Positions 4,026 to 30,081 of a stretch of DNA of 34,767 nucleotides are shown here, piece by piece. The DNA lies in contig CASIBX010000035.1 of the NCBI GenBank assembly GCA_949373075.1, positions 1-34,767 of the forward strand, given 5' to 3'. The stretch comes from Candidatus Poseidoniaceae archaeon (GTDB lineage Archaea; Thermoplasmatota; Poseidoniia; Poseidoniales; Poseidoniaceae). The notes beneath the pieces were generated by a model. It searched no databases. It saw only the letters and a program-made list of their open reading frames with translations, and was not told where the DNA came from. How positions within the stretch are numbered: the stretch's first letter is position 1; every line of letters begins with the position of its first letter. A program made the position numbers and the translations under genes.

Positions 4026-4085
4026 ATCACGATTTCTACTGTCAAATAGAAAAAGAATAATTGTATTCGATAACTGCCAAAGACT
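4026..4085. promoter_or_regulatory. Divergent promoter region, 60 nt
   Basis: This AT-rich spacer separates the leftward membrane-protein gene from the rightward nuclease-like gene, so promoters for both must lie here or overlap the coding ends. An AT-rich element around 4050-4064 (AGAATAATTGTATT) lies about 25-35 bases before the ATG at 4086 and could be a TATA box for a leaderless rightward transcript, since no ribosome-binding site precedes that ATG. The leftward gene has a GTGAT immediately before its ATG. The exact boxes are uncertain. Confidence 0.35.
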
Positions 4086-4538
4086 ATGTTTGAGGAATTT
4101 CTTACTGAAATATTAGCTTTGAATCTAATTTTGATAATTACTGTAGTTTATCTAATTCGTAAATTAATTGATATGAATTCAGAATTCAATCGATTCAAAT
4201 CTCAAAAAGATAATGATATTCTAGAAGCGAGAAAGGATTCAAACAAGAAGCAGAGAGCAACTATCAAAGGCCAGATTAGCGAGACAATTGCTCCGTGGTC
4301 GATGACTGTAGTAGATAGCGTGAGTGAGTTAAACTTCCTGGGAAATCCAATTGATTTTGTAGGTTTCAAAGGGTTGGATGGTAAGGGTGATGTATCCATC
4401 AAATTTATTGAAGTAAAATCTGGTGCAGCTAAACTAAATTCTAACCAAAGAAGAGTACGTGATGCTGTTATTGCAAAACGAATCGAATGGGTCGAAGTTC
4501 GAATTAATGAACTACAAATCCAAGAGAAAGTACTCTGA
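4086..4538 (+). CDS. Membrane-anchored endonuclease-like protein related to archaeal Holliday junction resolvase
   Basis: The 150-residue protein has one N-terminal membrane helix (about 10-25), a charged, probably helical linker (30-58), and a compact nuclease-like domain. The domain matches the family described as endonuclease related to archaeal Holliday junction resolvase. Visible PD-(D/E)XK-type residues are E66 (GQISETIAPW), D90 (NPIDF), E109 and K111 (FIEVKSG) and Q121 (SNQRRVRDAV). The family is assigned by motif, and its members are often anchored this way. Substrate and cellular role are not established, and true resolvase activity should not be assumed. It converges on secY with a 7-bp gap. 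No ribosome-binding site was seen, so a leaderless mRNA is likely. Confidence 0.75.
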   Translation: MFEEFLTEILALNLILIITVVYLIRKLIDMNSEFNRFKSQKDNDILEARKDSNKKQRATIKGQISETIAPWSMTVVDSVSELNFLGNPIDFVGFKGLDGKGDVSIKFIEVKSGAAKLNSNQRRVRDAVIAKRIEWVEVRINELQIQEKVL

Positions 4539-19204: not shown

Positions 19205-21781
19205 ATGACCCCTGTGCTAACGCATCCTCGCCTCAACGACGGGGTCGAGGCTAGAGCATATCAATTGCTGGCTGCAAAGCAAGCGATTTCCGGCTCTACG
19301 TTGCTCGTTATGCCCACTGGTCTTGGAAAAACAGCAGTACAATGGATGGCGATGGCAGAAGCCTTAGACGGGCCTGGGAGAATCGTATTGGTTGCCCCAA
19401 CTACGGGCTTGGTAGCACAACAAGCAAAGATGGCAAAACAATTCATAAAAATAGATCCTGAACGAATTGTCACCCTTACCGGTCAAGACCGTCCGCAGAA
19501 ACGTGAAGATATTTGGAAAGATGCGAAAATCGTAATGGCTACGCCTCACGTTATTCGAAATGATGCCCGTAACGGCAGAATTTTACTCTCGGAAATAGAT
19601 TTACTCATTGTAGACGAAGCTCATCACGCCACAGGTTCAGACTCGATGGCGCAATTAGGCGACATGTATCTTGAATCATCATCTAAAGCATTGGTTTTAG
19701 CGGCAACTGCCTCACCTGGTGTCAAATCAAGCAAAGTACTCGAAGTGATTCAACGTTTGGGAATTGAAAGACTTCACGTTACAAAAAGAGAGGATGACTT
19801 AGTACAGCCTTACATCACATCAATGGACATTGAGAAGCATGAACTCAACTTACCTGAAGAAATGTTAGAAATTATTCGACCCATGAGAATTCTAGAGGCT
19901 GAAGAAGCCGAATTCCTACGCCGTGGAGGATTCCTGACCGGTTCAGGAAGAATAACGACTGCCGCCATTGAGGAGGCGCAAAGAAGAGCGAGTGCAGCGA
20001 TCGGAAGAGGAGATGCTAGAGGATATGATGCTGCCAAAAGAATTGGCGACCTTAGAAGGCTTCATCGATTGTTGGATTTGCTGGACACTCAGGGTTTGAA
20101 ATGTGCAATTATGTATCTTGAGCGGGCTAGAAGTGATACTGACCGTAAAACCAAACGTTTCCTATCTTTATCTGCAGTTTCTAACTTCTTTAGTGAATGT
20201 CGTGGCAAAGACGAGCACCATCCTAAACCAGCACTGGTTGTAGAATTAGTAAAAAAAGGATTGAGCGGAGACGGTAAAGTCATAATTTTCACAGAATATA
20301 GAGACACTGTTGATAATTTGTTGCTAATACTAGAAAATGAATCAGGAATAAAACCAGGTAGATTCGTGGGCCAGGCTAGTAAAGGTAGCCAAATTGGAAT
20401 GAAGCAAAAAGAGCAAATCGCTCAATTGGACCGTTTTAGAGAAGGAGAAATTAACGTATTGGTAGCCACAAGTGTCGGCGAAGAAGGTCTCGATGTACCT
20501 GCTGCTGACAGCGTTATTCTTTACGAACCTGTACCGAGTGCAATCAGGGCTATTCAAAGAAGAGGAAGAACAGCCAGGCAGAAAGATGGAGACGTTCATA
20601 TCTTAATCGCAAAAGGCACTCGAGACGAGTATGTCCAACAGGCATCATTGCGTCGCGAGGCAATGATGTATAGAACTCTAGATGCTTTGAAAAACCAATC
20701 CCGGCTTCCAAGAAGAGCCCCTCCTAAAGATGACGTACTTGCTAAATTTACGATAGATGATGAAAGAGCGGAAGAGTTCATCAATTCTGAAGAGAAGAGA
20801 TTGTTCAGGGAAAAAGAAGTAGAGTCAAAACCAACTCCTGTAAAGCACGAGGTGAAACAGAATTCAGTTACGCCTTCAAACCGGCCTAAGGCCCAAAAAT
20901 CACTTGCTGATTTTGCAGCAACTCCGGCCAAAGAAAAACAAGATGAGTGGTGGAAACCAGTTCTCGATGGAACTATTACTCATTCTAGAGATGAGGAAGC
21001 ATCCAGTGCAGATGCTGCGAAAACTGAAACTATATCGATGAGTGAAGAGCCTGATTCAAACAACCTCATCACGATAGATCACCGAGAAGGAAACTCAACC
21101 TTACCCGCAATGCTCAAGTTATACGGACATAGTATCAGTTTAGAAAATTTGACAGTAGGAGACATACGAATATCAGATAGAATACTGATAGAACGTAAAA
21201 GTGCAAGAGACCTAGTTGATTCACTCATTGATGGTAGATTGATTCACCAAGCGAGAAGATTGCACAGCGCAGCCCCTAGACCCCTCATTATAGTCGAATC
21301 CAATGAAACACAGAGAGTCCACCCCAATGCAGTCCATGGAGCAATGGCCTGGATAACATTGGATTTGGGGTTGCCTGTAATTATGACTGGTTCTGCAGAA
21401 CAAACTGCAAGATTTGTTTCAATAGCAGCTAAGAGAGAGGCTAGAGTACTGGATTTATTGATGAACCATGTTAGGAAAAAACCGACTGATGCTGAAAAAT
21501 CTGCTATTAGCGCTGCATCCTCAGAAATTATGTCAATTATCAATGGAGAATTGGAAGAGGGGATTTTGTCGAAGAAATGGACAAATGAAGTTCTAACTAA
21601 GAGAGCCAAAATACTAGCCGATTTACCCGGAATTGGAGTCAAGAGCGCTAAAAGAATTATGTCAGTTGCAGGAGATATAATGGGACTTTGCTTGCTGAGT
21701 GAGGAGCAACTAACTAATATTGAAGGAGTATCATCGATTCAAGCCAAGGAATTATACAAATTCCTTCATGGCAATTCATGA
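19205..21781 (+). CDS. hef: Hef-type helicase/XPF-family nuclease
   Basis: Hef processes stalled or branched replication forks and is the archaeal relative of FANCM and XPF. Domain order: SF2 helicase with P-T-G-L-G-K-T at 37-43 and DEAH at 137-140, T-A-S-P after it, and motif VI (Q-R-R-G-R-T-A-R) at 451-458; a hydrophilic linker (about 540-615); an ERCC4 nuclease domain with D625, D653 and E663-R664-K665, then D-S-L-I-D-G-R-L; and a C-terminal helix-hairpin-helix pair (about 803-858). Both halves look catalytically intact. The 858 residues exceed typical Hef mainly through the linker. The ATG at 19205 is chosen; an ATG at 19169 is also possible. No ribosome-binding site was seen. Confidence 0.93.
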   Translation: MTPVLTHPRLNDGVEARAYQLLAAKQAISGSTLLVMPTGLGKTAVQWMAMAEALDGPGRIVLVAPTTGLVAQQAKMAKQFIKIDPERIVTLTGQDRPQKREDIWKDAKIVMATPHVIRNDARNGRILLSEIDLLIVDEAHHATGSDSMAQLGDMYLESSSKALVLAATASPGVKSSKVLEVIQRLGIERLHVTKREDDLVQPYITSMDIEKHELNLPEEMLEIIRPMRILEAEEAEFLRRGGFLTGSGRITTAAIEEAQRRASAAIGRGDARGYDAAKRIGDLRRLHRLLDLLDTQGLKCAIMYLERARSDTDRKTKRFLSLSAVSNFFSECRGKDEHHPKPALVVELVKKGLSGDGKVIIFTEYRDTVDNLLLILENESGIKPGRFVGQASKGSQIGMKQKEQIAQLDRFREGEINVLVATSVGEEGLDVPAADSVILYEPVPSAIRAIQRRGRTARQKDGDVHILIAKGTRDEYVQQASLRREAMMYRTLDALKNQSRLPRRAPPKDDVLAKFTIDDERAEEFINSEEKRLFREKEVESKPTPVKHEVKQNSVTPSNRPKAQKSLADFAATPAKEKQDEWWKPVLDGTITHSRDEEASSADAAKTETISMSEEPDSNNLITIDHREGNSTLPAMLKLYGHSISLENLTVGDIRISDRILIERKSARDLVDSLIDGRLIHQARRLHSAAPRPLIIVESNETQRVHPNAVHGAMAWITLDLGLPVIMTGSAEQTARFVSIAAKREARVLDLLMNHVRKKPTDAEKSAISAASSEIMSIINGELEEGILSKKWTNEVLTKRAKILADLPGIGVKSAKRIMSVAGDIMGLCLLSEEQLTNIEGVSSIQAKELYKFLHGNS

Positions 21782-22636
21782 ACCGATAATTATTGCTCGA
21801 GTCCTTAACTGAGCATATCGGTCTGTGAAATGGCCCAAAGCAAAAGCAATAATCTCCGTTAGATTAACCACTGGGATGTTTGTTTGCTTGTTAGCAACTC
21901 TACCTGCTTTACCTTGATATGAATCAAGATTTGAATGTGATTGACTGCATGCGGTTACCAATACTTTGGCTCCTGCTTTCTTAGCATCATTTAGAACTCT
22001 AGCTGTCATTTTCATTACAGAATCACCAAGAGACAGTAATGAGGGATTACCAACACTAGATGTTTTCGACTTGTATTCAATTGGTTGGCCCCCAAGTGCG
22101 GTGATTAATTGTTCCATATAGGTTGGATTCCAAGGGTCGTCTTCACCACAAGCGCCCTTGCGTTGCATGTGTGGCCCATAATAGCAGGCAATATCGAGAT
22201 CCAAAGGATTGACAACAGCGGCCTTAATTTTGTCAATTCCAATTTCATCAATCAAGATGTGAAGAAGATGACTTGTTGTTATTTCATCGGCCTTTAGAGT
22301 CATACCAGTAGTCTTCTCTAAAACACGGTTCGCATTTGCTAATGCGATTGGGTCTTTCTGAAAAGTGTCTAATGACTCATGCATTATCCCTTGGGATGAT
22401 GCGCAAACTGTGAGTATATCATGTCCGTTTATCTCAGCCAGTGCTAGATTCCTAGCATTAAGTGCTAGTTGTAATTCTCGATTACCTTGTTTGATGATGT
22501 TTCCACCATCGCTATTGTAGCCAGTGATTTCAACCAACTCAATTCCTAGACTGCGGCATAGAGGGTGAATTGTATCTTCAATCTCACGAGAAGATTGACG
22601 TGCTACATTGCCGGGGTAGTAAGAATACTTGACCAT
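21776..22636 (-). CDS. HdrB/SdhE-like CCG-domain protein lacking most iron-sulfur cysteines
   Basis: The 286-residue product follows the fold of heterodisulfide reductase subunit B and the SdhE/SdhC-type subunit, whose two CCG motifs (C-x-n-CC-x-n-CxxC) bind non-cubane [4Fe-4S] clusters. Family landmarks remain: YYPG at 6-9, A-R-N-L-A-L-A-E at 61-68, H-L-L near 123, D-I-A-C-Y-Y-G at 148-154, N-P-T at 170-172, A-L-G-G at 180-183, and T-A-C at 228-230. At the ligand positions it has N10, S42-D43 and S81 in motif 1, and P155, S194-V195 and S233 in motif 2. Only C78 and C230 remain. The frame is intact, so this is not decay. It follows the flavodoxin/SdhB-like gene by 9 bp, and its 3' end overlaps Hef by 6 bp. 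Confidence 0.8.
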   Translation of the reverse strand: MVKYSYYPGNVARQSSREIEDTIHPLCRSLGIELVEITGYNSDGGNIIKQGNRELQLALNARNLALAEINGHDILTVCASSQGIMHESLDTFQKDPIALANANRVLEKTTGMTLKADEITTSHLLHILIDEIGIDKIKAAVVNPLDLDIACYYGPHMQRKGACGEDDPWNPTYMEQLITALGGQPIEYKSKTSSVGNPSLLSLGDSVMKMTARVLNDAKKAGAKVLVTACSQSHSNLDSYQGKAGRVANKQTNIPVVNLTEIIAFALGHFTDRYAQLRTRAIIIGS

Positions 22637-22645
22637 TGCACCACC

Positions 22646-24817
22646 TCAGAATCTCCTGTCTAACTCATTAAAAATCGCAACTACTTCGTGATGGTTAGCA
22701 ACCTTGCTGTTGAACATGTTTGGGATTTTACCAATTCCAGCAGGTGGGATGAGCATACCTTGGAAACCACGCATCAGAGGACCACCATTTCTGGTGAAAC
22801 CTAGCATCATTCGAAGCGAGACTCCATTCATGATGTTAGACCCTAATCCAAGTGGACCTAAAACAGAACGATACAGAGTTGTTTCATTGACGTTACCTGA
22901 CATCTTAACCGAACGAGAGTAAGTCTTTACCAAACGGCCAGGCTTTCCTGTGAATTTATACTCTGCTAACAGACGAGCTCTTGCTGAGTAAAGCGAATCT
23001 GCTGCTTGCGCCCCATCGATACCATGTCGATGGATTGAGGAAATATCTGCCTCATTCCAAACTCCACCTTTGCCTTGCATTAATTCAAACATTTGTTTGA
23101 CATGAGAACTTCCTGAACGAGGGTCCTGACTTCTGACCCATCGCTGAAGAGCAATACCTGGTCCTGAATATGCCTCGTCGACATCATAGGTATCCGACAT
23201 TGCATTCACTAATTGTAGAGAACCTACATCTGCTAATGTGTGTAAATGAGTTGCTTCTGCCGATGACATAACACCCATTGGGGCGCCACTAGCGAGTCTT
23301 TCGCCTTGACGAGGATCGGCAATCATCCAAGGTTTAGAGTCGGAACGTGATTCGTCGAAACGGTCGTATGAAACCATTAGGTCTTTCAAAACTTCATATC
23401 CGGGCAGTGGTTCTAAAGTTAAGGTGTCACCATCTCCAACTAAATCACAAATCCTCGTTGTATCTGCAGGAACAATTCTACCGTTTACCTTTATCCCAGT
23501 AAGTGGGTTCTGTCCGGCAATACCTCCACTTCTGAAAGTAAGAGAACCATCAAATTCTCTTTTTACCGCAACTAAGGCATCTTCGATTGTTGCGTGACCT
23601 GGTAATGCTACGGCTAATGTATCATATCCAGATTGAGCCAATAATGGGTCATAGCGGAACAACCTCATTGTAACTGAGAGTTCTGGCACCACGATTGAAG
23701 GTGGTGTGAAGTCTCCAGCGTCTCCTTCATCCTCAGCATCTCCAACTCCGTATGAGCGCATCTGCTCAAGCAAGTCTTCTTGGAATACACCTGTGGAATC
23801 AACACATGCTATTTTTGGAAGAGCCTCTTTGACCCAATCCAACCAAGGAGGTTCAAAATCAACATCACACAATTTAATCTCTTCAATTGAAGTAGCCCCT
23901 AGAGATGAAAATTTACCATCCCAGTCTAATCCAGCTTGACAGAACTCATCGTAGGCAGTATCGCCAATCGCACAAACAGAATAGTGAACTGTAGATAGAG
24001 CAGGGGTAGAGTTGCATATTGCAGTCCAAACAGCCTCCGCATTGTCTGGCATTTCACCTTCGCCCCATGTCGAGGTTATTATCAAAATACGCTTGTGTGT
24101 TGCAAACTTAGCAGGGTCGTATCCCTCCATGTCGATTACAGTTGGCTCAAGCCCATATGCTGCAGCCATCTTTGCTGTTTTGGCAGCTAAGCCTTCTGCG
24201 TTACCTGTTTGCGAACCAAAGAATATTGCAATACTACGGTCCCCTGATAAAAGTCCAGACAAATCGCCAGATGCTCCAGCAGGAACTGCGATTGGTGCTT
24301 CAGAAGCGGCGGCTTCGACTTCAACTGCTCCTGAAGGTGCGGCGGATGCTCCGCCATCGACTCCTGCCATCAACGGGATTACTGCCTTGGCCCATTTATC
24401 CCATTCAGGTTCATACTCAACGTCGCACAACTGAATTTCATGAACTCGGGTTGCACCCAATGAAACAAATTTCTGATCCCAATCAATACCGGCTTGACAG
24501 AATTCATCGTATGCAGTATCTCCGATTGCACAAACTGAGAAACTAACTCCTGCAAGACTTGGATTTAATCCCTCGGTGGCAAGCCAAAGGTCTTCTGCGT
24601 TGTCTGGCATGTCACCTTCACCCCAAGTTGAGGTGATGATTAGTATTCTTTTGTGGGAAGAGAAAGTAGCAGGGTCAAAGCCATCCATGTCGAATATTTT
24701 TGGATTAAGGCCTGCCTTCTTAGCCATTTTTGCAGTTTTTCCTGCAAGTTCCTCAGCATTTCCGGTTTGCGAGCCAAAGAAAATGGCGAGGTCAGGGTTA
24801 CCAGCGACTTGAGACAT
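22646..24817 (-). CDS. Tandem flavodoxin - SdhB-like fusion with no iron-sulfur cysteines
   Basis: The order in the 723 residues is flavodoxin 1 (9-150), an Ala/Ser/Pro linker (152-194), flavodoxin 2 (195-340), an acidic linker, an SdhB/FrdB-like domain (380-618) and a tail (619-723). Each flavodoxin has its FMN loops: G-S-Q-T-G-N-A-E, T-S-T-W-G-E-G-[DE]-M-P-D-N-A and C-A-I-G-D-T-A-Y-D-E-F-C. The third domain shows SdhB blocks such as V-T-M-R-L-F-R-Y-D-P, L-T-L-E-P-L-P-G-Y-E-V-L-K-D-L, G-P-G-I-A-L and G-V-W, but the [2Fe-2S] ligands correspond to G432, N437, T440 and D452, and the other two clusters' ligands to D530, S533, L536, M540, E589, I595 and G599. Only one Cys (457) occurs after residue 338. 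The tail (G-N-V-N-E-T-T-L-Y) recalls HdrC/SdhB C-termini. ATG 24817 follows GAGGGTG. Confidence 0.82.
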   Translation of the reverse strand: MSQVAGNPDLAIFFGSQTGNAEELAGKTAKMAKKAGLNPKIFDMDGFDPATFSSHKRILIITSTWGEGDMPDNAEDLWLATEGLNPSLAGVSFSVCAIGDTAYDEFCQAGIDWDQKFVSLGATRVHEIQLCDVEYEPEWDKWAKAVIPLMAGVDGGASAAPSGAVEVEAAASEAPIAVPAGASGDLSGLLSGDRSIAIFFGSQTGNAEGLAAKTAKMAAAYGLEPTVIDMEGYDPAKFATHKRILIITSTWGEGEMPDNAEAVWTAICNSTPALSTVHYSVCAIGDTAYDEFCQAGLDWDGKFSSLGATSIEEIKLCDVDFEPPWLDWVKEALPKIACVDSTGVFQEDLLEQMRSYGVGDAEDEGDAGDFTPPSIVVPELSVTMRLFRYDPLLAQSGYDTLAVALPGHATIEDALVAVKREFDGSLTFRSGGIAGQNPLTGIKVNGRIVPADTTRICDLVGDGDTLTLEPLPGYEVLKDLMVSYDRFDESRSDSKPWMIADPRQGERLASGAPMGVMSSAEATHLHTLADVGSLQLVNAMSDTYDVDEAYSGPGIALQRWVRSQDPRSGSSHVKQMFELMQGKGGVWNEADISSIHRHGIDGAQAADSLYSARARLLAEYKFTGKPGRLVKTYSRSVKMSGNVNETTLYRSVLGPLGLGSNIMNGVSLRMMLGFTRNGGPLMRGFQGMLIPPAGIGKIPNMFNSKVANHHEVVAIFNELDRRF

Positions 24818-26617: not shown

Positions 26618-29600
26618 TCACTGCTGGTTGTCCAACCATTGCTGACCGTAGTGGCCCCATTGCTCCATAGTCCAGCCCTCTGGAAGGCCTGCTGCGGGCA
26701 CAGTCGGCCCAGTTGACACTTCAGCAGGTGGTGAAAATTGAGGGGTAGGAACTACCTCTTGAGGAGGGTTTTGCATATCCATGCCTCCTATTGTCGGAGC
26801 AGCCGCGACCGCTCCATAAGTGGCTGACAAATTATCTTCATAACCATCTTCTGCCCAATTCTGTTCTTCTTCTTCTTCTGTCCCGGTTACAACCATGAAC
26901 AGTACTCCAAGTAGAGAGATAATCAAAGCAGCGCCGACAATCCAGATTCCGATTCCAACCCAATCTAAGGAGTCTGAGTTACCAGATGCCGCACCGTCAC
27001 CGCTTCCAGATGTCCTTTTCAGAGTGACTGGCAATTCAAGAGACGCAGCATCTTCAACAGAGTTTGAGATTGCCCAGATTGTAACCTGTGTCTCAATGAA
27101 GTCCTCATCTAGATTCTTCAAAGTAGAACTTTGGACTTTGAAAACTACTGTAATTTCTCTTTCACCTTCAACATCCAACCAAAAGTCCCTATCTGTACTC
27201 TTGATGGAAGCACTGTACCAACGGTTGGTACCTTGCTGATCCACTGACATCGAGACAGATTGGCCTTCAGTGTACTGATTTCTAACCCTAACTACAACCT
27301 CGTATTCTCTTGCCTCATCGATTATAGTTGATTCAGTTGAAATTATTCGCAACCAATTCTGTGAACCTACTCTGTATGTGCACTTACCGTTTCCAGATAC
27401 ATCAGCATCATTAACGCTGGTTGCTATTACCTTGAGTATTAATTGGCCATTAGTGCCTTCATCAAAAGTAAATGTGACTGTAACGTTGAAAGAAGTACCA
27501 GGTTCTAGAATAGGAGTCATATCACCTTCAACCAATTGTGCGAAGTTTGCATTCATTCCATCGGGAAGTTCCATCGACATAGTGAACCTGTCCGCTTCGT
27601 TTCCATCATTACGAACTTCGAAACGCATTGATTGAGCTACATCACCTGGGATGTATGATTGGTCTGCATCTTCATCAGAGACCCAAACTGCAGCGGTATC
27701 AGTAACATCAACATTGATTGTAAGTTGTTCTTTGACCATAGGGTCATCTAGACTTGTTGCTGTAATTCTTGCCGTATACAAACCAGGTGCTAAACCAACC
27801 GGCATTGGTAAATTCAGAGCAATGCTTGTTTCACCGTCCCATGCATCTAGTATCGGAGTTTCATCCGAAGAAAGGTATGCTTCGAGTCTCCAATTAGATT
27901 GAACTAAGTCCAATGAATAGGCTTCGTCATCATTGCCAAGATTTAGTAGGTCAATGTATACTATTTTCGAATTGCCGTTTGCTGGTGCAACTATTTCTAA
28001 TTCTTCAGCATTCATCGATAATTCCCTAAGAACAGGAACATCGATTCTCTTGGAAATTACATCATTACCAAACAGTGACTGGCCACATGATGGGCAAACT
28101 GCACGGAGTGAGAATGGCACCTCTCCCGGAAGAGAATCAGAAGGTGCTGTGACGTTCAAAAGAAGTTCAACTTCTTCGCCCTTAATCAGCGGCATTGGCA
28201 TCTGAACAATACTATGATTCAAGTCAGTGACGAATGCCACCCATCCTTCGCTTTGGAAGTTAGATGTAACAGTAAATCCAGCCTCTCGGTTTCCAGCGTT
28301 TTGTAATTTGAAAGGAATGTTGGTATTCCCTCCAGGAAGTAAGGTGTCAGCAAGTAAAGGTACTGTTGAGGAAAGGTCAACACCGTATTGTTCTGTTATT
28401 GCGATATCTGAAGTGATACGACCCATCTCTCCTAGTTGAGTGCCTCCAGCGTCTTCCCACCAGATTTGCCATACTTGTTGTTGGACATCAGCTCCGGCCG
28501 GAATGGATAGATTGATCCACATCTCAGAAGTATTCCCCGCAGGGATTGCAGGAAGGATTACATTTGTACCGTGTTGGTTAGGGTTTTCACTGTCGATTCG
28601 AATCATAGGAAGCCCTGGATTCATCCATGATGAATTGGAAACATTGGATTGGATGCGTACTTGTGCAGACATGTATCCATTATTTGTGACCATACAATGT
28701 AGTGGAACAATTGTGTTTGGAGGAGTAGTATATCCTCCAACTGGGTTATCACAAGTTATGTTCAGAGTAAACTCACTCACCTTTTCGATTCCAAACATTA
28801 CGAAATCATCGACATGCATTCCACTAGATGCACCAGAACCATCAGACTGGAACAAGATACCGTAAGACCATGAGTGGCCTCCAAGTTCTTCAGTAGGATC
28901 CCATGAAATGTTACTCCAAGACCCTTCGGTTATACTCGGAGTATCTTCAACGAAGTTGTGTGAGATTGTAGTAGCAGGAGCTCCATTCCCTCTCCATAAC
29001 TCCAGAGCGACGAAATCTCCAGCGCCCATTTGTCCCCAGGTTTGAACGTGCATCTGGGCAGAAACTAACCCTGCAGAATTAAGTTGCATCTTGCACATCC
29101 ACTGGATGTACTGCTGGGATAAGCCACCGTCAAGAGATGCACCGTATCCGCAGTTACTATCTGAACCTCTGAAAGCGAACACTAGTCTGCTCCTAGAAGC
29201 TGAAGGATAGTCGGAACCTGAATTTGAATGTCGCCAGTTTGCTGTGCCTACTGCTGAAGCCGAGTTGTCCTCTTGCCAAATTCCAATACCGGATGCATCG
29301 CTTCCATCAATTGGATACTCGCCACCATAGAATGTAGGCATTGAGGCAGTAGGTAAGGCTTGATCTCTAGGGTCGCCTTCAGCGTCCATATCATCTTGAG
29401 AAATAGCCACTGGTAGTTCCATTTCCATCACGTCGTTATCATTTCTATCGTCGGCTGAATTGAAAACGGTTGCACGGATTATGACTCCACCAGATAATTC
29501 ATTGTTTGAAACATCTAGGAAAGAATGTGCAACTGAAGCTTCCCATGTGTAGGTGTCAGTGTATGACTGGCCTCCAAGCATAGGAACTGTTTCCCATGTA

Positions 29601-29923
29601 GTCGTGTTCATTACGAAACCAATAGGGTGAACCATTTCAACGGTGACCAAAGCACTTGAACCTTGTAGAGCGCCTCCTCCACGCTTTGCTTCGACTGAAA
29701 TATCTACAACGTCGCCCTTTGCGACATAAACTACAACACTTCCATCAGGCTGAACCCAATGATTGGCTTCAGTGGAATTGACTATGATATCAGATACTGA
29801 AAAGTCATCTGACGAACCTCCGCGTCCCGAAGTCGCCTCCACGTTTTCTACAGTCATCAAAAGCATGGACTGCATTAGGAGAATGGTCACCAATAGGAAT
29901 GGTATCGACTTTCGCATATTCAT
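26618..29923 (-). CDS. Large exported surface protein with C-terminal membrane anchor
   Basis: The product of about 1101 residues has a signal peptide (MNMRKS, then a hydrophobic stretch ending near VEA). A region resembling a jelly-roll or ligand-binding domain contains paired cysteines (about 255-285). Three or more beta-sandwich repeats of the CARDB/NEW3 kind follow, with L-x-N-x-G-[NY]-x-x patterns (LQNAGNREAGF, LLNLGNDDEAY, VRNDGNEADRF). A single membrane helix lies near 990-1013, with an 87-residue cytoplasmic tail: acidic, then Pro-rich, then a Trp/Gln-rich end. No catalytic site was recognised; a role in surface architecture or binding is inferred. The ATG at 29923 or 29917 is likely; an open frame with GTG at 29968 also exists. 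Confidence 0.8.
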   Translation of the reverse strand: MNMRKSIPFLLVTILLMQSMLLMTVENVEATSGRGGSSDDFSVSDIIVNSTEANHWVQPDGSVVVYVAKGDVVDISVEAKRGGGALQGSSALVTVEMVHPIGFVMNTTTWETVPMLGGQSYTDTYTWEASVAHSFLDVSNNELSGGVIIRATVFNSADDRNDNDVMEMELPVAISQDDMDAEGDPRDQALPTASMPTFYGGEYPIDGSDASGIGIWQEDNSASAVGTANWRHSNSGSDYPSASRSRLVFAFRGSDSNCGYGASLDGGLSQQYIQWMCKMQLNSAGLVSAQMHVQTWGQMGAGDFVALELWRGNGAPATTISHNFVEDTPSITEGSWSNISWDPTEELGGHSWSYGILFQSDGSGASSGMHVDDFVMFGIEKVSEFTLNITCDNPVGGYTTPPNTIVPLHCMVTNNGYMSAQVRIQSNVSNSSWMNPGLPMIRIDSENPNQHGTNVILPAIPAGNTSEMWINLSIPAGADVQQQVWQIWWEDAGGTQLGEMGRITSDIAITEQYGVDLSSTVPLLADTLLPGGNTNIPFKLQNAGNREAGFTVTSNFQSEGWVAFVTDLNHSIVQMPMPLIKGEEVELLLNVTAPSDSLPGEVPFSLRAVCPSCGQSLFGNDVISKRIDVPVLRELSMNAEELEIVAPANGNSKIVYIDLLNLGNDDEAYSLDLVQSNWRLEAYLSSDETPILDAWDGETSIALNLPMPVGLAPGLYTARITATSLDDPMVKEQLTINVDVTDTAAVWVSDEDADQSYIPGDVAQSMRFEVRNDGNEADRFTMSMELPDGMNANFAQLVEGDMTPILEPGTSFNVTVTFTFDEGTNGQLILKVIATSVNDADVSGNGKCTYRVGSQNWLRIISTESTIIDEAREYEVVVRVRNQYTEGQSVSMSVDQQGTNRWYSASIKSTDRDFWLDVEGEREITVVFKVQSSTLKNLDEDFIETQVTIWAISNSVEDAASLELPVTLKRTSGSGDGAASGNSDSLDWVGIGIWIVGAALIISLLGVLFMVVTGTEEEEEQNWAEDGYEDNLSATYGAVAAAPTIGGMDMQNPPQEVVPTPQFSPPAEVSTGPTVPAAGLPEGWTMEQWGHYGQQWLDNQQ

Positions 29924-30081
29924 CAACAACCATGCGAGACTCGTTTGGCATATGAATGTCCCCTTCACATGTCCCCGTAGGGGACAAGGGGGTGCGGCAT
30001 TATCAGACCACTGATTTAATCGCCTTTAACCCCCTCTTGGCAAGGGCAACCTTTGAGAAAGCATAGAGTTGCGATGAGCCC
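29924..30081. promoter_or_regulatory. Divergent promoter region with GTCCCC inverted repeat
   Basis: The spacer between two divergent genes contains a perfect inverted repeat at 29971-29985 (GTCCCC-GTA-GGGGAC) and another GTCCCC at 29958-29963. An AT-rich element near 30010-30025 (ATTTAATCGCCTTTAA) is a possible TATA region for the rightward gene, about 55-70 bases before its GTG. An operator role for the GTCCCC elements is possible but unproven. Confidence 0.3.

Follow-up and report, generated by a model that had tools for sequence, protein, structure and literature searches.

The exchange of ferredoxin for flavodoxin is a well-known response to low iron, and to our knowledge it normally takes place between separate proteins that are exchanged or regulated. 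In phytoplankton and bacteria, iron-free flavodoxin substitutes for ferredoxin, as stated in the abstract of PMC10287166. A second described system is HdrB of heterodisulfide reductase, which binds two non-cubane clusters and reduces a disulfide between them (an excerpt of PMC5861303), and a third is the E-type (SdhABE) succinate dehydrogenase, or 8-methylmenaquinol:fumarate reductase, whose definition and ten-cysteine motif we take from passages of PMC2680327. Here, we compare these systems with a two-gene module on a 34,767-nucleotide stretch from Candidatus Poseidoniaceae archaeon (GCA_949373075.1, contig CASIBX010000035.1, positions 1-34,767), which as a whole is referred to below as the window. 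The module encodes a 723-amino acid (aa) protein, in which two flavodoxin domains precede an SdhB-like part, and a 286-aa HdrB/SdhE-like protein. Iron–sulfur (Fe-S) ligands have been lost from this module, electron-carrier domains have been fused to it and are swapped as DNA cassettes, the carrier type co-varies with a reductase encoded elsewhere, and both genes are under purifying selection. In our view, this module probably derives from an E-type succinate dehydrogenase, as a repurposed relic driven by an exchangeable fused carrier.

With respect to family membership, a preliminary description of this DNA assigned the two proteins correctly. The 723-aa protein matches the profiles Flavodoxin_1 (3.4e-58) and Fer2_3 (1.2e-8), the latter above its Pfam cut-off (35.4 bits versus 27), and the HdrB-like protein matches MFR_anch_SdhE (4e-36) and CoB_CoM_SS_B (6e-35). 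Scores against curated families fall far below the cut-offs, at 46.9 versus 228 (PRK05950) and 41.3 versus 88 (dhsB) for the SdhB-like part and at 125 bits versus 500 and 120.9 versus 345.15 for the HdrB-like protein, whose Pfam score for the CCG motif lies just over the cut-off (21.5 versus 20.6). In terms of fold, the structural model of the SdhB-like part matches chains of 6lum, 6awf and 1kf6 (E values of 1e-9 to 1e-7, template modeling (TM) score about 0.5 of the target), and the PLPG..V+DL segment of SdhB is retained in its core. Solved HdrB chains match the HdrB-like protein at 1.6e-28, and the best solved-structure match of the model is 8rvy_B, with a TM score of 0.87 of the target.

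The cluster ligands are where the module departs from these families. Eleven alignment columns hold a Cys common to reference SdhBs, and across 111 distinct modules nine of these columns contain no Cys at all, one contains three and another contains one. Specifically, the 2Fe-2S ligand columns 83, 88, 91 and 103 hold 0, 0, 3 and 0 Cys residues, respectively, and the seven ligand columns of the two further SdhB clusters hold one (column 185), with none in the remaining six; an earlier alignment of 56 modules had no Cys at the ligand columns. The window protein itself keeps none of the SdhB ligands. Unlike HdrB, the window HdrB-like protein is left with only C78 and C230, two of the ten ligand positions of the two-CCG motif. 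Four of the five cysteines of the second site (CCG2) are gone in all 76 HdrB-like proteins compared, whereas the first site (CCG1) is mostly lost in 69, with all five Cys present in six and four present in one. Proteins with CCG1 cysteines are found in both families, f1 and f2. Because the residues that replace CCG1 differ between families (N, S, D, C, S/A/T in one versus N, S, C, C, T/A in the other), and because the tree needs two changes in CCG1 state, this site was probably lost twice. All seven modules that have CCG1 cysteines also have ferredoxin, a number too small for a link with carrier type. The paired ligand loss noted in the preliminary description is real and is seen throughout the order Ca. 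Poseidoniales (Marine Group II archaea); its statement that both partners have lost their clusters holds in the window and fails as a universal one, given the seven proteins just mentioned and the ferredoxin domain that most SdhB-like proteins carry and the window copy lacks.

Chance had been judged a poor account of these losses, and that judgment stands: these positions hold almost no Cys in any part of the order, and comparison with a sister genome (L151) gives a ratio of nonsynonymous to synonymous substitution (dN/dS) of 0.010 for the HdrB-like protein (dN 0.009, dS 0.889) and 0.029 for the SdhB-like part (dN 0.027, dS 0.937). Both genes are under strong purifying selection, and these ratios, together with intact open reading frames (ORFs), rule out a pseudogene. 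The expected co-occurrence of the adjacent genes in marine archaea was likewise found, as 60 of 61 relatives have the HdrB-like protein and all 61 have a match to the 723-aa protein (to flavodoxin only in G012). In a phylum-wide sample of 292 genomes, HdrB-like matches were obtained in 80 members of the order, and the misses listed include one order member (G306) and six genomes of the class that belong to its other family. The named relatives, which are the best 80 of 466, are titled Ca. Poseidoniales, Poseidoniaceae, Poseidonia, Thalassarchaeaceae, Thalassarchaeum or plain Euryarchaeota archaeon. As for a canonical enzyme in the same genomes, 58 of the 61 relatives contain a separate, stronger SdhB match, which we take as canonical, and three (G006, G010 and G011) show the module only; because of this separate match, the SdhB-like protein is a paralogue of the resident SdhB.

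The carrier at the N terminus of the module comes in two main forms. In most homologues, the first 90 residues are a single-cluster 4Fe-4S ferredoxin (CxxCxxC...CP), and Fer4_13 (PF13370) was above its cut-off in both ferredoxin-form homologues tested. Across the 111 distinct modules, this slot contains ferredoxin in 72, flavodoxin in 30 and neither in five (two of them unreliable, with L167 cut by a contig edge and L207 masked by X), and four are undetermined. The window module has flavodoxin in the slot, so it has two flavodoxins and no ferredoxin. Three modules (L088, L098 and L103) are without any N-terminal carrier domain, and a separate flavodoxin gene beside them was considered and set aside, as none was evident among the neighboring ORFs of at least 80 aa listed.

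At least 17 changes between ferredoxin and flavodoxin are needed on a tree of the SdhB-like plus HdrB-like core (102 labeled modules), versus five to six for the first flavodoxin domains (Fld-N) on their own tree, which is one of few columns; because of this difference, we conclude that a few cassettes are probably moved between relatives by recombination. At the level of DNA, window positions 24253-24814 are replaced in L151 by positions 4027-4387, with both flanks 83-87% identical, and the breakpoints lie at the start codon and the linker, with collinear flanks, in this pair and in four others. An assembly chimera as the origin of the two forms is rejected on account of the collinear flanks in these five pairs and the presence of the two-flavodoxin form in three AG- isolate records, which we take to be single-cell genomes. 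In contrast to the replacement in phytoplankton and bacteria, the exchange here concerns a domain within a single ORF, with ferredoxin and flavodoxin alternating at one locus.

The flavodoxin domains score 196.3 bits in Pfam versus a cut-off of 25 and are of the CysJ type, with TIGR01931 as the best match (2.9e-68). Scoring used the phosphate-loop, Trp and Tyr motifs that we presume to mark flavin mononucleotide (FMN) sites in flavodoxins. The loop and Trp motifs are present in 105 of 105 second flavodoxin domains (Fld-C) and 30 of 30 Fld-N domains and the Tyr motif in 103 of 105 and 29 of 30, the three misses being one run of X and two cases with Gly beside the Tyr; judged by these motifs, the FMN sites of both flavodoxins look intact. 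One 471-aa module protein (L096:5312-6724) has ferredoxin and no flavodoxin loop that could be found, and Fld-C is therefore not kept everywhere. A stand-alone 156-aa flavodoxin is also encoded in the window genome (L118:8080-8547), and short open frames matching flavodoxin occur in several relatives.

These results divide what the preliminary description had proposed about iron. That a flavin carrier replaces an iron carrier is seen directly as the swap in this one slot. An iron-free module in general is contradicted, because 39 of 60 genomes have a ferredoxin domain on the module and a few keep one CCG site; by sequence, “iron-free” fits a minority of modules, that of the window among them. 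Nor do the Fe-S losses look like one coordinated replacement. They look stepwise, with CCG2 and the SdhB ligands gone from all modules or almost all, CCG1 lost at least twice and ferredoxin swapped repeatedly. The flavodoxins said to lie next to the operon are present, not as neighbors, but as domains of the same 723-aa ORF.

A further connection of the carrier is with a second locus. A gene of the CysJ/P450-reductase type, with FAD_binding_1 and NAD_binding_1, occurs in 57 of 61 genomes (59 matches, those in G003 and G023 being the module's own flavodoxin), and it has an N-terminal flavodoxin in 12 of the 57 and none in 45. Broken down by module, the reductase flavodoxin accompanies none of 38 ferredoxin forms, seven of 13 two-flavodoxin forms and four of five with neither, which amounts to 11 of 18 genomes without a module ferredoxin versus 0 of 38 with one (Fisher test, 2.1e-7; left out are four genomes without a found reductase, one ferredoxin and three two-flavodoxin, as well as G012, which has no module, and G038, with a different N-terminal extension at a contig edge, is scored as having no flavodoxin). 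When corrected for kinship, five to six independent pairs differ in the same direction, none in the opposite one, and four to five show no difference. Between the window genome and its sister, the reductase flavodoxin is a clean 517-bp difference. With its optional domain, the reductase gene (L117:9680-11506 and L231-L286) gives these genomes a second site of swapping.

The likeness to CysJ and cytochrome P450 reductase lies in the CysJ-type flavodoxins of the module and in the FAD_binding_1 and NAD_binding_1 domains of the co-varying reductase; the difference lies in the optional nature of its flavodoxin domain and in the missing sulfite reductase. Specifically, NIR_SIR had no match in any of the 61 genomes, among which 18 reach a completeness of 90% or more, versus 11 of 14 in the control, and it is for this reason that a role of the reductase in assimilatory sulfite reduction is not likely. 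Since carrier type and reductase flavodoxin co-vary and no sulfite reductase was found, we infer from these sequence patterns that the reductase feeds the module.

In terms of ancestry, sequence comparison suggests an E-type origin. The best-scoring relatives outside the order belong to family f6 (31-36% identity), in whose loci intact genes for SdhA, SdhB (ligands kept) and the HdrB-like protein stand side by side. With the module profile, E-type SdhB reaches 67-74 bits and the resident canonical SdhB 30-36 (six sequences each). The module resembles SdhABE in that SdhB and SdhE/HdrB folds are encoded by adjacent genes and an SdhA-like protein is present in the genomes; it is unlike SdhABE in that the SdhB ligands and the ten-cysteine motif of SdhE are missing, flavodoxin or ferredoxin carriers are fused to it, and the SdhA-like protein is unlinked, with its catalytic residues gone. 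No SdhA-like flavoprotein is encoded in the window, as had been remarked, and the operon contains no catalytic SdhA. The remark does not extend to the genomes, 55 of 61 of which encode the unlinked, orphan SdhA-like protein at an E value of 1e-40 or better. In the window genome it is L131:5788-7431 (G000:C39). Some f2 copies have internal stops near the end, and in many f2 genomes the match stops near residue 495. Among 13 aligned copies, the positions of the flavin-linking His and the catalytic Arg are lost in all 13, and of two further His positions none of the copies keeps one and three keep the other. According to a passage of PMC2680327, some working SdhABE enzymes likewise have no flavin-linking His, so its loss alone says little. 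The orphan may be the third old subunit.

Structure prediction bears on how the two module proteins fit together. Modeled as one read-through chain, the window pair gave a predicted local distance difference test score (pLDDT) of 78.1 and a predicted TM score (pTM) of 0.56 at full length, and 76.7 and 0.78, respectively, for the SdhB-like plus HdrB-like part. The prediction favors a defined contact between the two parts, in line with the interface that the preliminary description had looked for. Besides HdrB and SdhB chains, the fold matches of the model include 3kwl, a Helicobacter pylori hypothetical protein of which a single chain aligns with the SdhB-like plus HdrB-like model (639 residues) over 653 columns (E value 2.1e-13, TM score 0.58 of the target), albeit with 12% identity and a root-mean-square deviation of 14.5. 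No sequence match for 3kwl appeared in the two lists searched, the second being the best 60 of 150, and a table in PMC3397514 lists it as of unknown function. By model comparison, it is possibly an independent case.

Building from these observations, the repurposed E-type relic could work as follows. The SdhB and SdhE/HdrB folds and, by prediction, their contact are retained, with the internal Fe-S wire gone, and electrons would instead enter via the N-terminally fused carrier (ferredoxin plus flavodoxin in most homologues and two flavodoxins in the window), whose slot relatives trade in the form of a DNA cassette. They would likely be donated by the unlinked CysJ/P450-reductase-type enzyme, using reduced nicotinamide adenine dinucleotide phosphate (NADPH) and having its own flavodoxin domain only where the module is without ferredoxin. 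Electrons would then pass from NADPH to the flavin adenine dinucleotide of the reductase, to the FMN (or 4Fe-4S cluster) of the carrier domain and on to an acceptor in the SdhB-like/HdrB-like body, and the module would work as a redox enzyme. The boldest suggestion, and that of which we are least sure, is that C78 and C230 would serve as thiols in the former HdrB pocket, which would be the acceptor site. In its fullest form, which we put forward tentatively and consider rather doubtful, the proposal is that, throughout an order of archaea abundant in the ocean, a new NADPH-driven enzyme has been made out of a dead E-type succinate dehydrogenase, that recombination swaps the ferredoxin/flavodoxin allele of its fused carrier in step with a second locus, and that two-cysteine, iron-free thiol chemistry operates in the old disulfide-reductase pocket instead of non-cubane clusters.

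Several of our own results weigh against a donor-driven E-type relic. The SdhB tree leaves a grouping of the module with canonical SdhB unrejected (p of the approximately unbiased test, p-AU, 0.295). The orphan SdhA-like proteins form one clade whose grouping with E-type SdhA (p-AU 0.237) and with canonical SdhA (0.239) are both unrejected, and the best tree places this clade, on long branches and unsupported, with NadB. On the side of the reductase, sign tests on the independent pairs give marginal results (a median p of 0.031 in one direction and of 0.0625 when the two traits change places), and among the 13 two-flavodoxin genomes in which a reductase was found, this enzyme lacks flavodoxin in six. 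Finally, the pTM of 0.78 was obtained for a single read-through chain whose joint is of low confidence.

With respect to what drives the swap, iron thrift is a plausible candidate, and both it and oxidant resistance fit. The proposal that oxidative stress, not iron, is the driver, with flavodoxin chosen because surface-ocean oxidants destroy ferredoxin clusters, is one that we rate as possible without leaning toward it. Flavodoxin is described as a stress-resistant replacement for ferredoxin in a part of PMC5322553, a property compatible with iron as the cause too. Geography is not cleanly iron-like, as the two-flavodoxin form occurs in none of three ALOHA and none of three Antarctic-named metagenome-assembled genomes (MAGs), yet MAGs from the South Pacific and South Atlantic have it in seven of 11 cases versus one of eight for the other Tully provinces (p of 0.037 one-sided and 0.059 two-sided, for a contrast picked after seeing the data, with no kinship correction and with provinces inferred from name prefixes). 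The provinces of these MAGs are given in a portion of PMC5769542. Elsewhere, the counts are Fram 0/4, ETNP 0/4, Guaymas 0/2, Saanich 2/5 and North Sea 1/1. The geographic signal is weak and mixed, and does not decide between iron and oxidants.

As to function, the SdhB/SdhE pair might instead be a non-redox platform or a redox sensor whose carrier domains report on flavin or Fe-S status. Nearly all internal cofactor ligands are gone, as this would have it, and the module has a chaperonin gene as its neighbor both in the window and in each of the five listed loci; however, a sensor has no obvious need for a carrier type that tracks a domain of an NADPH reductase at another locus or for intact FMN motifs in both flavodoxins, and we regard this explanation as unlikely. 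Less credible still is a pseudo-subunit with an assembly or regulatory role in the canonical succinate dehydrogenase encoded by the same genomes. The resident SdhB in 58 of 61 genomes and the retained PLPG..V+DL segment would suit such a role, but the module profile scores E-type SdhB above the resident one, module and canonical genes lie on different contigs of the window genome (G000:C11 versus C35), and the carrier swaps and the reductase link are left unexplained. That clusters are still bound through non-cysteine or rearranged ligands is highly improbable, as the SdhB ligand columns are occupied by other residues, despite the six proteins with a complete CCG1 and the one additional first-site Cys that f2 members hold over the window protein.

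The positions of the module and its parts are collected below; the coordinates, the 9-bp gap and the adjacency of the two genes are as first described. A thermosome (chaperonin) gene lies upstream and a helicase-ERCC4 nuclease gene downstream, tail to tail with the module, and this gene order is repeated in five of five f2 loci listed. Adjoining the thermosome gene is a 1116-aa protein (26618-29968) with a weak CARDB match (E value 0.037), and large ORFs occupy the equivalent position in five related loci. In one f2 genome, both module genes form a single 997-aa ORF (L089:5841-8831), and a near relative (L221) is unfused.

Positions of the module genes and their parts in the window
Feature	Position	Strand	Basis or remark
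SdhB-like module protein, 723 aa	22646..24817	-	Two flavodoxin domains, then the SdhB-like part with a 2Fe-2S-type beta-grasp domain and an alpha-helical domain, both ligand-free
N-terminal exchangeable cassette, 562 bp, flavodoxin in the window	24253..24814	-	DNA comparison with L151; 361-bp ferredoxin cassette in the sister genome
Fld-N, first flavodoxin domain, residues ~8-150	24368..24796	-	Flavodoxin_1 match in two stretches; FMN motifs
Fld-C, second flavodoxin domain, residues ~193-340	23798..24241	-	Flavodoxin_1; retained in nearly all homologues
2Fe-2S-type beta-grasp domain of the SdhB-like part, no cysteine ligands, residues 384-487	23357..23668	-	Fer2_3 1.2e-8
Alpha-helical ferredoxin domain of the SdhB-like part, no cysteine ligands, residues ~488-660	22838..23356	-	Family matches, alignment and fold
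TGA stop and 9-bp intergenic gap	22637..22648	-	Both module genes share one frame; fused in one relative, L089
HdrB/SdhE-like protein, 286 aa, both CCG sites stripped	21776..22636	-	Profile matches and alignment
C78 of HdrB-like protein, first Cys of old first CxxC	22403..22405	-	Retained in 75/76
C230 of HdrB-like protein, first Cys of old second CxxC	21947..21949	-	Retained in 76/76

We found no description of this module in the literature searched, papers on Poseidoniales included, as far as their accessible parts go. The available text of PMC6336850 calls Poseidoniales succinate dehydrogenases canonical and does not mention flavodoxin, and nothing on the module was found in the portions of PMC9723583 and PMC6461757 at hand. 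Flavodoxin is assigned to cyanobacteria and Nitrosopelagicus in a section of PMC13096325 and reported from ammonia oxidizers in one of PMC7554672. Archaeal fusions are treated in PMC11237513, the searched text of which, its tables being outside the search, has no related mention in a Poseidoniales context, and a large survey used a 200-aa cut-off that would miss flavodoxin fusions of this kind (from an extract of PMC7039249).

For these archaea, the module represents a domain swap at one conserved locus of dominant uncultured plankton, with many repeats, even between sister genomes. With such a locus, the question of what selects flavodoxin over ferredoxin in the sea becomes testable by setting counts of junction reads against data on iron, light and oxidants. 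The HdrB-like proteins, six of 76 with a complete first CCG site and most without, moreover offer a natural series for the emptying of an Fe-S enzyme of its iron under strong selection. If the proposed reading is true, allele frequency at this slot would allow iron or oxidant stress on uncultured archaea to be gauged from their genomes.

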